Source: Segetibacter sp.
Lineage (GTDB): Bacteria > Bacteroidota > Bacteroidia > Chitinophagales > Chitinophagaceae
DNA length: 39,134 nt
Direction of reading: 5' to 3'
Assembly: GCA_025963675.1 (NCBI GenBank)
Contig: JAOQAJ010000410.1
Location: 1-39,134, forward strand
Shown: piece after piece, positions 31,277 through 39,134 of the stretch
Layout of the letters: every line of letters starts with the position of its first letter
Numbering within the stretch: position 1 is the stretch's first letter
The notes under the pieces: generated by a model
The model's database searches: none
What the model was told of the DNA's origin: nothing
Seen by the model: the letters and a program-made list of their open reading frames with translations, nothing else
Program-made: the position numbers and the translations under genes

Positions 31277-31927
31277 TTGGATAACATTTTGGATCCCATA
31301 TTACACTCACCTCGTTTAAAGGAATATCTAAATGAACTTTCTTCTTACATCAGAAATGAAGAAGAAAAGAGAGAAGGTTTTTATGCTACTATAACTGAGC
31401 AGGAAAAAGCGGAATTTATAAATGGGGAAGTTATATTTCATTCACCCGTGATCAGAAAACATAACCAGATTACAGGCAAGCTTTTTACATTATTGAATGT
31501 CTTTGTATCAGCTAAAGATTTAGGATTTGTTGGTTTTGAAAAAATATTAATCAAGCTTAGCCGGAATGATTTTGAACCCGACGTTTGTTTTTTTCGAAAA
31601 GAAGTGGCTGATACTTTCTCCGACAAAACAATGTTTTTTCCGGCGCCGGATTTCATAGCGGAAATCCTTTCAAAATCAACCCAGGCGATCGACCGCGGAG
31701 TGAAGTTTGAAGATTATGCTTTTCACGGGGTGAAGGAATATTGGATAATAGATGCCGACAATGAAACAGTAGAACAGTATTTACTTAATGATGAAAAGAG
31801 ATATGAGCTTTTTGTCAAGTTAAACGAAGGCACGGTGTACTGTAAAACCGTTTCTGTTTTTAATATACCTGTACGTGCTTTGTTTGACGAAACGATATAT
31901 AACGATACATTAAAGCAAATGATATAA
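31277..31927 (+). CDS. Uma2 family (DUF820) PD-(D/E)XK endonuclease-like protein
   Basis: NDFEPDVCFFRKEV; PAPDFIAEILSKSTQAIDRGVKFEDYAFHGVKEYWIIDAD; TTG start; ends directly before the nuoC ATG. Confidence 0.85.
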   Translation: MDNILDPILHSPRLKEYLNELSSYIRNEEEKREGFYATITEQEKAEFINGEVIFHSPVIRKHNQITGKLFTLLNVFVSAKDLGFVGFEKILIKLSRNDFEPDVCFFRKEVADTFSDKTMFFPAPDFIAEILSKSTQAIDRGVKFEDYAFHGVKEYWIIDADNETVEQYLLNDEKRYELFVKLNEGTVYCKTVSVFNIPVRALFDETIYNDTLKQMI

Positions 31928-32521: not shown

Positions 32522-33166
32522 ATGGATAATGTTTTGAAAGACATATTAGACTCGCCAAAACTTCCTGATTATGTTGAGGAACTAAAAGAGTATTTATTGC
32601 AGGAAGAGGCGAAGCGAAATACTTTCTATGACAGTGTGAGAGATGACGAAAAGGCGGAGTTTATAAATGGTGAAGTAGTTTATCATTCTCCTGCTAAGGA
32701 AAAACACTTAGCAGTGATTGAAAACCTGGGAAACATACTTTCGCGGTTTGTTCGAAAAAGTAAAGCAGGTTTAATAAGAAGAGAGAAAGCTTTGGTAAAG
32801 CTTCGCCGCAATGATTTTGAACCTGATATTTGCTTTTTTAGAAAAGAAATATCAAACGCTTTTGATTCGAATACTATGTTTTTTCCTGTCCCTGATTTTG
32901 TGGTTGAAGTATTAAGTTCAAGTACAGAAAAAATGGACAGAGGAGTGAAGTTTGTTGATTACGCTTTAAACGGTGTAAAAGAATATTGGTTAGTTGATGC
33001 GGATAAAAAAGTTGTTGAACAATACGTTTTAGAAAATGAAAGCTTTGTGTTGGCTGAAAAGGTGCAGCACGCAACGGTGCGATGCAAAGTTTTAGAAGGT
33101 CTTGAAATTCCGTTGGAAGCTATTTTTAATGAAGAAGCGAACGAATTGTTTTTGAGAGAAATATAA
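32522..33166 (+). CDS. Uma2 family (DUF820) endonuclease-like protein, paralog of 31277-31927
   Basis: NDFEPDICFFRKEI; PVPDFVVEVLSSSTEKMDRGVKFVDYALNGVKEYWLVDAD; shares EKAEFINGEV with the first copy. Confidence 0.87.
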   Translation: MDNVLKDILDSPKLPDYVEELKEYLLQEEAKRNTFYDSVRDDEKAEFINGEVVYHSPAKEKHLAVIENLGNILSRFVRKSKAGLIRREKALVKLRRNDFEPDICFFRKEISNAFDSNTMFFPVPDFVVEVLSSSTEKMDRGVKFVDYALNGVKEYWLVDADKKVVEQYVLENESFVLAEKVQHATVRCKVLEGLEIPLEAIFNEEANELFLREI

Positions 33167-33221: not shown

Positions 33222-33248
33222 GCACAAGAGTGCGACGCAACGATGATG
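33222..33248 (+). repeat. dispersed CAACGATG-family intergenic repeat (subfamily 2)
   Basis: gcacaagagtgcgacgcaacgatgatg; CAAGAGTGCGACGCAAC shared with 37421-37443 (reverse strand). Confidence 0.7.
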
Positions 33249-35145: not shown

Positions 35146-35553
35146 ATGAAACTTACTCCCTACATCCACTTCCAGGGCAATGCTGAAGAGGCAATGAATT
35201 TTTATTCAGAAGCGTTAGGCGGGGGTATTATTGCTATCAGCAGATATGGCGATAGTCCCATGCCTTCTGATGAAGATTACAAAGACAAAGTGATTCATGG
35301 AAGGGTGCAGTTCGGAGACAATGTTATCATGATTTCTGATACATTTAAAGAAAATGCTGTAAATACTGATGGAAACATTCAATTGTCAATCGAACTAGCC
35401 CAGGAAGGTGAGATAGACGAAGTTTTTAAAAAGATGTCTGAAGGCGGAACTGTTACGATGGAACTTCAGAATACTTTTTGGGGAGCAAGATTTGGAATGT
35501 TGAAAGATAAGTTTGGTGTAAGCTGGATGTTTAATTACGAGATGAAAAAATAG
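35146..35553 (+). CDS. VOC family protein (PhnB/glyoxalase-like)
   Basis: MKLTPYIHFQGNAEEAMNFYSEALGG; HGRVQFGDNVIMISD; FWGARFGMLKDKFGVSWMFNYE. Confidence 0.92.
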   Translation: MKLTPYIHFQGNAEEAMNFYSEALGGGIIAISRYGDSPMPSDEDYKDKVIHGRVQFGDNVIMISDTFKENAVNTDGNIQLSIELAQEGEIDEVFKKMSEGGTVTMELQNTFWGARFGMLKDKFGVSWMFNYEMKK

Positions 35554-36020: not shown

Positions 36021-37370
36021 ATGAGTGTAAAATTATTATTAGATAAAGCAAATATTGAAGGCATTCGTTTTTACCAGGCCTATCGCGAAAACGGCGGTTA
36101 TGCTGCTGTGGAAAAAGCCTTTAAAATGTCTCCTGCAGAAATAGTGGAAGAGGTTAAAAAAAGTGGGTTAAGAGGCCGTGGTGGAGCGGGCTTTCCGACA
36201 GGAATGAAGTGGAGCTTTCTTGCCAAACCTGAAGGTGTTCCCCGTTACCTGGTTTGTAATGCCGACGAAAGTGAGCCTGGAACTTTTAAAGACAGGTATT
36301 TGATGGAGTTTTTACCTCACCTTCTAATTGAAGGTTTGATCATCTCATCATTTGCACTGGGAAGTAACAGAACTTATATATACATCAGGGGCGAGTATGC
36401 CTGGATTCCTGACATTTTGGAATATGCAATTAACGAGGCGAAACAAAATGGATGGCTAGGTAAAAATATCTTAGGGACTGGCTTTGATTGCGAAATCTAT
36501 GTTCAACGCGGAGCAGGGGCCTATATCTGTGGTGAAGAGACTGCTTTAATTGAAAGTTTGGAAGGTAAAAGGGGCAATCCTCGAATTAAACCTCCATTCC
36601 CTGCAATCAAGGGATTATGGGAAAGCCCAACCGTAGTTAATAATGTAGAAACACTTGCTGCCATTGTGCCGATTTTTAATATAGGTGGCGAGGAGTATGC
36701 TAAAATAGGAGTTGGTAAATCAACCGGTACGAAGTTGATTAGTGCATGCGGCAATATTAATAAGCCGGGGGTGTACGAGATCGACATGACTATCAGTGTT
36801 GAGGAGTTTATTTACAGTGATGAATATTGCGGTGGAATCCCTAATGGCAAAAGATTGAAAGCATGTATACCTGGTGGTTCATCTGTACCCATTCTACCCG
36901 CTAACCTATTATTTAAGACTGCAAAAGGCGAAACAAGATTGATGAACTATGAGAGTTTGTCGGATGGCGGTTTTCCAACAGGAAGCATGATGGGTTCCGG
37001 AGGTTTTATTGTACTAGACGAGGATCAGTGTGTTGTTCGTCATACTTTAACCTTAGCCCGTTTTTATCATCATGAGAGTTGTGGACAATGTAGTCCATGT
37101 CGGGAGGGAACCGGCTGGATGAAAAGGGTTTTATATAATATCGAGTACGGAAAAGGTAAGCTTAGTGACATCGATTTGTTGTGGGATATTCAAAGTAAGA
37201 TCGAAGGCAACACTATTTGTCCATTAGGTGATGCCGCAGCGTGGCCAGTAGCAGCAGCAATAAGACATTTCAGAGATGAATTTGAGTGGCATGTACTTAA
37301 CCCTGAAGAAAGCCAGGTTCGGAATTTTGGATTAGCACATTATGCTGATGCAAGAGAGGTTGTTGCTTAG
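36021..37370 (+). CDS. nuoF: NADH-quinone oxidoreductase subunit F
   Basis: GLRGRGGAGFPTGMKWSFL; CNADESEPGTFKDR; YICGEETALIESLEGKRGNPRIKPPFPA; SCGQCSPCREGTGW. Confidence 0.97.
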   Translation: MSVKLLLDKANIEGIRFYQAYRENGGYAAVEKAFKMSPAEIVEEVKKSGLRGRGGAGFPTGMKWSFLAKPEGVPRYLVCNADESEPGTFKDRYLMEFLPHLLIEGLIISSFALGSNRTYIYIRGEYAWIPDILEYAINEAKQNGWLGKNILGTGFDCEIYVQRGAGAYICGEETALIESLEGKRGNPRIKPPFPAIKGLWESPTVVNNVETLAAIVPIFNIGGEEYAKIGVGKSTGTKLISACGNINKPGVYEIDMTISVEEFIYSDEYCGGIPNGKRLKACIPGGSSVPILPANLLFKTAKGETRLMNYESLSDGGFPTGSMMGSGGFIVLDEDQCVVRHTLTLARFYHHESCGQCSPCREGTGWMKRVLYNIEYGKGKLSDIDLLWDIQSKIEGNTICPLGDAAAWPVAAAIRHFRDEFEWHVLNPEESQVRNFGLAHYADAREVVA

Positions 37371-37420: not shown

Positions 37421-37443
37421 GTTGCGTCGCACTCTTGTACTGA
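37421..37443 (-). repeat. dispersed CAACGATG-family intergenic repeat (subfamily 2)
   Basis: gttgcgtcgcactcttgtactga = reverse complement of tcagtacaagagtgcgacgcaac. Confidence 0.75.
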
Positions 37444-37468: not shown

Positions 37469-38536
37469 ATGAACCATATAAAGAACATAGAAATAAAGAA
37501 TTTTAAATCCATCAGGCATCAAAGAATTGAAGAGTGCCGGAGGATTAATGTTTTTATTGGTTATCCGAACGTGGGAAAGAGTAATATTTTGGAGGCTTTG
37601 AGCTTATATTCAATAAGTAAAGACAACAATAATATTTCTAATCTTGTTCGATTTGAAGAAATACCAACGTTATTTTTTAATGGTGATATTCAAACAGAAT
37701 TTCAAATAAAAATAAATGATAATCATATTGTTCACGGATTTTTATTGGATGGGTTTTTATCAATCAAAAGACAATACTCGGATGATGAAAATTTACTAGT
37801 TTCGGAAAATTTAAGTAAACAAATTACAAATTCCGGGATTGATGAAATATGGAGTTTACAGCTTGATAAAAATAAAGTGGTAAACCGTTTCAGTATAAAA
37901 GAGGTTCGTGAAATATCTCTCGGCCATTTAATAGGTTCAATTAGAAAATATTCTTTCAGAAGGCATAATACTGTAAAGGAAGAATATACCCATTTATCAA
38001 TTCCTTTTGGTGAAAATTTGTTGGCTATCCTCTCATCTTCTCCCAACATTAGAAAGGAGATTGTTCAATTGTTTAAACCTTACGATTTATTATTGAATAT
38101 CGACAAGACGTCTAATACTTTAAGGGTTGCGAAAGATTTAAAGGATGGAACTATTTTTACAATACCCTTTTCTATGATTGCCGAAACTTTGGAACGACTT
38201 ACCTTTCATAAGGTGGCAGTTATGAGTAATGAAAATTCAATTTTACTCTTTGAGGAGCCGGAAGCTCATATGTTCCCTCCATATATAGGCAAGTTTACAA
38301 GTGACATAATATATGATCAAAACAATAATCAATACTTTATAGCTACTCATAGCCCATTTGTATTAAATGATTTTATGGAGGATATGGATAAAGAAGACTT
38401 AAGTATTTATGCTGTGGGTTTACGTGATGGTGAAACGACAATAAGAAAGATAAACGATGAGGAAATAACTGAAATATATCAATACGGCATTGACTTATTT
38501 TTTAATCTTGAGAATTATCTAAAGGATGTTGTTTGA
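37469..38536 (+). CDS. AAA/ABC-type ATPase, OLD/RecF-like
   Basis: IKNFKSIRHQRIEECRRINVFIGYPNVGKSNILEALSLY (Walker A); SILLFEEPEAHMFPPYIGKF (Walker B); YFIATHSPFVLNDF. Confidence 0.9.
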   Translation: MNHIKNIEIKNFKSIRHQRIEECRRINVFIGYPNVGKSNILEALSLYSISKDNNNISNLVRFEEIPTLFFNGDIQTEFQIKINDNHIVHGFLLDGFLSIKRQYSDDENLLVSENLSKQITNSGIDEIWSLQLDKNKVVNRFSIKEVREISLGHLIGSIRKYSFRRHNTVKEEYTHLSIPFGENLLAILSSSPNIRKEIVQLFKPYDLLLNIDKTSNTLRVAKDLKDGTIFTIPFSMIAETLERLTFHKVAVMSNENSILLFEEPEAHMFPPYIGKFTSDIIYDQNNNQYFIATHSPFVLNDFMEDMDKEDLSIYAVGLRDGETTIRKINDEEITEIYQYGIDLFFNLENYLKDVV

Positions 38537-39071
38537 CGTATATAAATGTTTTTTACCGGAATGTTATTTAGACACGTTATTAGTAGAAGTTCTTTTAAAT
38601 AAACCGTTTTCTGTAAACCATAAAAAAGGCAACAGCTCAATAGCTGTTGTTATGAATAATAGTCCTTTAAAAGATAGATTTGCAGTTGGAATAATTGATG
38701 AAGACAAAGTAAGACTTAAAGAACTAGATACCTTTATTCACGTAGAAAGGTTAAGAAAAAATGGACTGAAAATTTATCGTCATTCTAACAAGAACCATTT
38801 TTTTATTCAAATCTGTCCGGCAGTTGAAAGATGGATTTTGAAAGAATGTGAAAAAGCTTCTATTGATATTGCTGCTGACAGGTACAGATTGCCAAATACT
38901 TTAAAAGGGTTAAAAGCGATGAAGGGATTAACTCAAAGAAGTGATGAACGATTCAAGAGATTATTTAGAGATATGTCTGAAAATGAAAGCTGTGATGAAT
39001 TGATTGAATTAAGAAGATGGCTTTTGTTTTTCAGGGAAAATAATTACAACTCAAACTTAGATTTGTTATAA
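38526..39071 (+). CDS. hypothetical partner of the OLD-like ATPase; possible divergent TOPRIM-like protein
   Basis: 181 aa overlapping the ATPase by 11 nt; LLVEVLL ... FAVGIIDEDKVRLKEL gives an E...DxD pattern. Confidence 0.6.
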   Translation: MLFDVYKCFLPECYLDTLLVEVLLNKPFSVNHKKGNSSIAVVMNNSPLKDRFAVGIIDEDKVRLKELDTFIHVERLRKNGLKIYRHSNKNHFFIQICPAVERWILKECEKASIDIAADRYRLPNTLKGLKAMKGLTQRSDERFKRLFRDMSENESCDELIELRRWLLFFRENNYNSNLDLL

Positions 39072-39072
39072 A

Positions 39073-39134
39073 ATGGCGGAAGAAGTAAAAAAAGAAGCTC
39101 CTGCAAACTTTAAAGTAACGATTGACAATATTAC
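39073..39134 (+). CDS. nuoG: NADH-quinone oxidoreductase subunit G, 5' fragment truncated by window end
   Basis: ATG 39073 gives MAEEVKKEAPANFKVTIDNI, in the expected position after nuoF. Confidence 0.65.
   Translation, partial: MAEEVKKEAPANFKVTIDNI

Follow-up and report, generated by a model that had tools for sequence, protein, structure and literature searches.

In a 39,134-nucleotide contig of Segetibacter sp. (hereafter, the window), we find a two-gene module lying between the respiratory genes nuoF and nuoG. The first gene, A, encodes an ATPase, and the second, B, a small protein with TOPRIM-like motifs. Together they form a conserved module, widespread and to all appearances without a name. 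We consider it probable that A and B constitute a compact two-gene sensor-effector defense module resembling AbiL, RloAB, and PARIS. Two features of the family stand out, namely, the residence of the pair in fixed junctions of housekeeping operons and the block replacement of the middle of A between otherwise similar copies.

The position of the pair between nuoF and nuoG, as given in a preliminary description of this DNA, was confirmed, as was the 11-nt overlap of A and B, both on the plus strand (Table 1). The gene nuoG begins 1 nt past the B stop and is cut off after 62 bases by the end of the contig; contig C161, from the same assembly, carries the remainder of a nuoG that is identical over the shared stretch. 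Because hundreds of amino acids of A and B are conserved across several phyla, both ORFs are far beyond chance.

Table 1. Features of the A-B pair and its flanks (window positions)
Feature	Position	Strand	Description	Basis
nuoF	36021..37370	+	upstream flank of the slot	Pfam Complex1_51K, 5.8e-47
Gene A	37469..38536	+	355 aa; ABC/RecF/OLD-class ATPase without nuclease domain, presumed sensor/regulator	ORF, Pfam, PADLOC, model
Walker A GYPNVGKSN, A residues 31-39	37559..37585	+		sequence; nearly invariant among relatives
A middle, hypervariable, ~residues 66-175	37664..37993	+	presumed recognition part	family conservation profile, block swaps among relatives, lowest model confidence
Walker B region LLFEEPEAH, A residues 259-267	38243..38269	+		sequence; nearly invariant
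Gene B	38526..39071	+	181 aa; compact TOPRIM-like, presumed nuclease effector	ORF, fold, motifs shared with RloB/DUF4276; no family model
B motif 1, E12-C-Y-L-D16 (PECYLDT)	38559..38573	+	presumed TOPRIM Glu closing strand 1	invariance (n = 72); hhalign
B motif 2, D58-E-D60	38697..38705	+	presumed TOPRIM DxD closing strand 53-58	invariance and secondary structure
B motif 3, E101 in PAVERWIL	38826..38828	+	resembles RloB AFELWYLL	conservation at least 90%; hhalign to RloB; motif scan
nuoG start	39073..39134	+	cut by contig end	same sequence as contig C161 nuoG

Gene A is the head of a Rad50/OLD-class ATPase without a nuclease domain. It matched AAA_15 (1.3e-14) and AAA_21 (4.6e-8) in Pfam and, among the PADLOC models, ATPase-Toprim_I-B (8e-19), AbiLi (2e-18), GajA (5e-18), and AriA (2.6e-16). 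In the fold search, the nearest solved structures to the A model (pLDDT, 86.8; lowest confidence at about residues 111 to 150) were Rad50, OLD (6p74), PtuA, Retron-Eco8, and GajA. The motifs originally noted in A (GYPNVGKSN, LLFEEPEAH, and ATHSPF) are all present and nearly invariant in relatives, with ATHSPF at residues 292 to 297, after the Walker B region (THSP, 293 to 296). The model ends with the ATPase lobe, so A carries no fused C-terminal nuclease, again as first described.

Across the A family, conservation is found in the 60 N-terminal and 120 C-terminal residues, and about residues 66 to 175 are hypervariable (median pairwise identity: N-terminal part, 0.61; middle, 0.22; C-terminal part, 0.53). 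Close pairs of A genes differ by block replacement of the middle, with DNA identity falling from ∼95% to ∼50% and then rising again. For instance, loci L051 and L059 are 91 to 98% identical in DNA through nuoF and 100 bases into A, 49 to 62% identical over the following 700 bases of A, and 98 to 100% identical at the end of A, followed by a B of 83 to 94% and a nuoG of ∼95% identity. A swapped middle between nearly identical ends was also found for L046/L059 in the nuo slot and L116/L082 in the glyQ/glyS slot, and the L046 middle has its closest counterpart in L031/L084, which belong to a different tree branch. Judged from these alignments, the pattern is that of recombinational exchange of a putative specificity segment, and the middle of A is presumably the phage sensor. 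The swapped block points to the residues that probably sense phage and would thereby make identification of the trigger and domain-swap experiments simple.

Gene B is likely a TOPRIM protein, and we hold with high confidence that it is a divergent, compact one outside every named family tested. In the AlphaFold2 model of B, built with 72 sequences (pLDDT, 95.1; pTM, 0.91), the strand at residues 9 to 11 ends at E12, and the strand at residues 53 to 58 ends at D58-x-D60; E12, D16, D58, and D60 are invariant in the 72 relatives. B thus has the TOPRIM arrangement of an invariant Glu after the first strand and an invariant DxD after a later one. Of the catalytic residues initially proposed, the DxD in GIIDED (D58/D60) is the invariant one, but the Glu placed in LLVEVLL (E23) is not conserved, and E12 in PECYLDT is. 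The model agrees in part with the expected TOPRIM fold: the strand order and the catalytic positions fit, and the best match among ∼350,000 PDB chains is 6nk8, a Burkholderia OLD TOPRIM domain, but that match is weak (E = 0.2; TM, 0.37).

Profile searches placed B in no family. The window B had no match to Pfam, PADLOC, or NCBIfam models at E values up to 10, and no TOPRIM, RloB, or DUF4435 match was listed for the B family (72 members), whose best model matches were all weak. DUF4276 scored 0.033 at best, in 3 of the 72 members, and PADLOC HEC-01B weakly matched one B member (0.0054); the window B itself matched neither. Searching PDB sequences with the B family profile gave chance matches only, and a viral fold library contained no match to B. 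When B was aligned by hhalign to RloB, DUF4276, OLD-TOPRIM, and a single DUF4435 sequence, probabilities were ∼5% or less, a level that serves for motif placement only; E12 fell on the Glu of the DUF4276 EGxTE motif and E101 on the RloB ExW motif. In a motif scan, the order E-C/G-x-x-D/E, DxD, ExW/F was found in 108 of 121 B relatives versus 5 of 699 neighboring ORFs, and in 4 of 10 RloB and 4 of 13 DUF4276 proteins; the pattern was drawn up with B in view and describes likeness rather than providing a blind test. Of the TOPRIM effectors that have an OLD-type ATPase as partner, the compact B proteins may be some of the smallest.

The two genes are tightly linked. When B alone was used as the query against 100 related genomes, 12 sites in 10 of them were identified, with a relative of A directly upstream in 11 of the 12. 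Over all searches, co-occurrence of the second gene with the ATPase, on which the preliminary description had made its reading depend, was strong: of the loci identified through B, 47 of 48 contained both genes, as did 77 of the 80 identified through A, and the two genes overlapped or were at most 10 nt apart in 75 of the 77 paired loci. It is important to note that the 80 A loci are the best matches to the window ATPase and that the loci include some contigs obtained from two collections; the counts therefore show tight linkage and are not an unbiased census. Members of the pair were found in Bacteroidota, Methylococcales, and one Desulfobacterales bin, and the distribution is patchy, with the pair present in 34 of 396 genomes of the family; culturable carriers include Niastella yeongjuensis, Pedobacter cryotolerans, Lacibacter cauensis, and Methylovulum psychrotolerans. 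At the phoH/purC junction, one locus (L119, after 7011) has an intact A followed by a mere 53-aa fragment of B, and another (L087, after 7029) has A and no B; these are decaying or B-less copies. A winged HTH gene, A, and B are consecutive in Geoglobus ahangari pleomorphic virus 1, an archaeal pleolipovirus (L207, 1980 to 3421; hmmsearch: A, 5e-105; B, 2e-32), which perhaps carries the pair for excluding rivals. A tblastn search of phages and plasmids with B alone found none, the archaeal virus copy surfacing only via A, and an IMG/VR scan with A returned distant ATPases, none with a B partner.

A pair that is nearly always intact and patchy in presence could also be a toxin-antitoxin-style addiction pair, with B the toxin and A its neutralizer, stabilized within a core-gene operon and with phage defense secondary or absent. 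In the NetFlax study (PMC10440598), AAA/TOPRIM and AAA/RloB pairs do behave as toxin-antitoxin systems. We nevertheless consider addiction unlikely, since a sensor, and not a simple antitoxin, would be expected to show the middle swaps seen in A, B is comparatively constant in the very pairs whose A middle is swapped, and A is found beside a broken B in L119 and alone in L087.

Based on Pfam annotation of the flanks, the pair occupies the nuoF/nuoG slot in Chitinophagales and the glyQ/glyS slot mostly in Methylococcales. Further slots are parE/parC, phoH/purC, and chorismate synthase/DAHP synthase, where parE was called by similarity and position and purC by sequence, neither via the Pfam scan. 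The housekeeping genes flanking a slot are co-directional. Other A-B copies stand alone, several of them preceded by a small HTH gene. A quick tree built from 71 A+B sequences requires only a single change for each of the nuo (29), gly (12), and par (4) sets of copies, and each main slot forms one side of a branch (SH-aLRT: nuo, 99; gly, 100; par, 99), with the details of the tree uncertain due to long branches. Of the 41 nuo loci that show both genes, 24 have an 8-nt overlap between the end of B and the predicted start of nuoG, which suggests coupled expression, and the pair is presumably cotranscribed with its host operon.

The nuoF/nuoG slot can be empty or filled otherwise. Genomes of the same genus, with nuoF 97% identical, have an ordinary ∼100-base nuoF-nuoG spacer, which is not conserved among relatives. 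Other occupants are a GxxExxY/PDDEXK_3-like ORF, a four-helix-bundle (S23)-like ORF, and glycosyltransferase-like ORFs, all read from sequence, with Pfam confirmation for one PDDEXK_3 case only. On contig C161, the end of nuoF is followed by a PDDEXK_3 (GxxExxY) gene (L176; 1698 to 2063, minus strand) and by nuoG, the start of which matches the end of the window. The same nuoG behind a different occupant indicates that the assembly probably combines two slot alleles; two operon copies per cell are a possible alternative.

Several side observations concern these operons. The glyQ/glyS slot holds, beside A-B, another apparent pair of an ATPase and a small protein (L092, 5429 to 5971, plus strand, with L078, 4855 to 5418, plus strand); the L092 partner has 181 aa, no Pfam match, and a series of E, DxD (VVIIDDDT), and NIESW like that of RloB-type TOPRIM proteins. 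In the window, two Uma2 (PF05685) genes lie around nuoC (31277 to 31927 and 32522 to 33166) and a glyoxalase/3-dmu-9-type gene follows nuoE (35146 to 35553), which suggests that several junctions of the nuo operon are used as insertion slots. An interspersed short repeat, GTTGCGTCGCACTCTTGTAC, occurs at 37421 to 37440 (plus strand, 0 mismatches), in the spacer directly before gene A, and at 33222 to 33241 (minus strand, 1 mismatch). Its 19-base core is present 268 times in the genome versus 0 for the reversed control, and it is probably a REP-like element.

Loyalty of each slot (nuo, gly, and par) to one tree lineage would be expected of a selfish homing-like element, whose nuclease would cleave alleles lacking the pair, with the flanking operon genes as homology arms through which the pair is copied into the same junction. 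Weak coupling between module and host agrees with this (Spearman correlation of pairwise identities in 17 genomes: nuoF-nuoG, 0.64; nuoF-A, 0.23, the latter lowered by the variable middle that A includes), as does the PDDEXK_3 nuclease gene held by other alleles of the nuoF/nuoG slot. However, the spacer of empty relatives is not conserved, glycosyltransferase-like ORFs occupy the slot too, stand-alone copies bring their own HTH gene, and homing needs no ATPase with a hypervariable middle; we therefore judge a homing-like element improbable. We give very little credence to a DNA-repair or housekeeping accessory linked to the function of the host operon. Although A falls within the RecF/Rad50/OLD ATPase superfamily and the start/stop overlaps with nuoG are tight, the host operon varies by lineage (respiration, tRNA charging, topoisomerase, and purine synthesis), the pair is absent from close relatives, and it is carried by a virus.

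The sensor-effector defense reading has precedents. In PARIS, a TOPRIM tRNase stays bound to a hexameric ATPase until a phage protein sets the tRNase free (PMC12409363), and AbiL and AAA/RloB pairs are comparable two-gene cases (PMC10440598). By analogy with PARIS and AbiL/RloB pairs, A most likely senses and B cuts. A would probably oligomerize and keep B inactive, and its variable middle would recognize a phage product, being swapped between strains to track changing phages. B would be a small metal-dependent TOPRIM nuclease (E12, D16, D58, and D60), released or activated by A, and active B would cut nucleic acid (tRNA, other RNA, or DNA) such that infection aborts. The pair would have settled within housekeeping operons, here at nuoF/nuoG, with expression from the host operon, and alleles would enter and leave a single slot, with recombination across the conserved genes on either side as a plausible route.

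Patchy presence, empty slots, the second allele, HTH-led copies, and the virus copy are defense-type mobility and count for a role in phage defense. Counting against it are the housekeeping neighbors of the operon copies and the small number of known defense genes near stand-alone copies; among 116 neighbors of the latter, PADLOC matches were few (PtuA/PtuB, AriA, a helicase, and HEC-03B), and these counts, which have no control set, are not used as support. Guilt by association in defense islands is blind to modules among respiration and tRNA-charging genes, and the neighbors of this pair suggest such a blind spot in the discovery of immune systems. We tentatively suggest that the pair may represent a family of immune modules living inside essential housekeeping operons instead of defense islands. 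Each lineage would be loyal to one junction (nuoF/nuoG, glyQ/glyS, or parE/parC) and be lost and regained via allele exchange through the flanking genes, with specificity changed by cassette exchange of the A middle and the nuclease kept comparatively constant. A literature search on defense genes within nuo or glyQS operons found nothing relevant, and no description of the operon-slot lifestyle or the swapped A middle was found in the open-access journal papers searched.

Among known systems, AbiL (AbiLi + AbiLii) and RloAB are alike in having two genes, a nuclease-free ATPase and a separate TOPRIM/RloB-type protein. The PADLOC AbiLi model covers residues 4 to 326 of the 355 of A (2.3e-18), with ATPase-Toprim_I-B and GajA scoring about equally, and the motif order E..E, DxD, ExW is common to RloB and B. 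B differs in being shorter (181 aa) than the sampled RloB proteins, mostly 214 to 239 aa, in having C13 where EGxTE has Gly, and in that the RloB model (PF13707) does not match B and is not among the matches listed for its family (hhalign probability, <1%). Moreover, we did not find the operon-slot lifestyle described for AbiL/RloAB. PARIS (AriA + AriB) likewise has its ATPase sensor and TOPRIM effector on separate genes, and the PADLOC AriA match to A points the same way. However, the PARIS effector AriB is a DUF4435-type protein, whereas the window B has no DUF4435/AriB match (E up to 10) and none is listed among the 72 members, and AriA is absent from the best 50 listed fold matches of A. 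OLD classes 1 to 3, Gabija GajA, and Retron-Eco8 have an ATPase of the same class as A, judged by both sequence and fold, and the best, if weak, PDB fold match of B is to the OLD TOPRIM domain; in those systems, ATPase and TOPRIM are on one chain, whereas A has no fused TOPRIM. Gabija has a helicase partner and the retron a reverse transcriptase, and neither adjoins the window pair, whose flanks are nuoF and nuoG with no UvrD-like GajB. Unlike in Septu, B has no HNH or PtuB match. DUF4276 and HEC-01B resemble B through weak single-member profile matches, with scores below a usable threshold, and through alignment of E12 with the EGxTE Glu. The split OLD/RecF-class ATPase with a short TOPRIM-like partner, as proposed at the outset, holds up as a conserved pair that PADLOC 2023, Pfam, and NCBIfam models leave uncovered. 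It is a variant of the known split ATPase/TOPRIM type, and its slot lifestyle and swapped middle are the notable parts.
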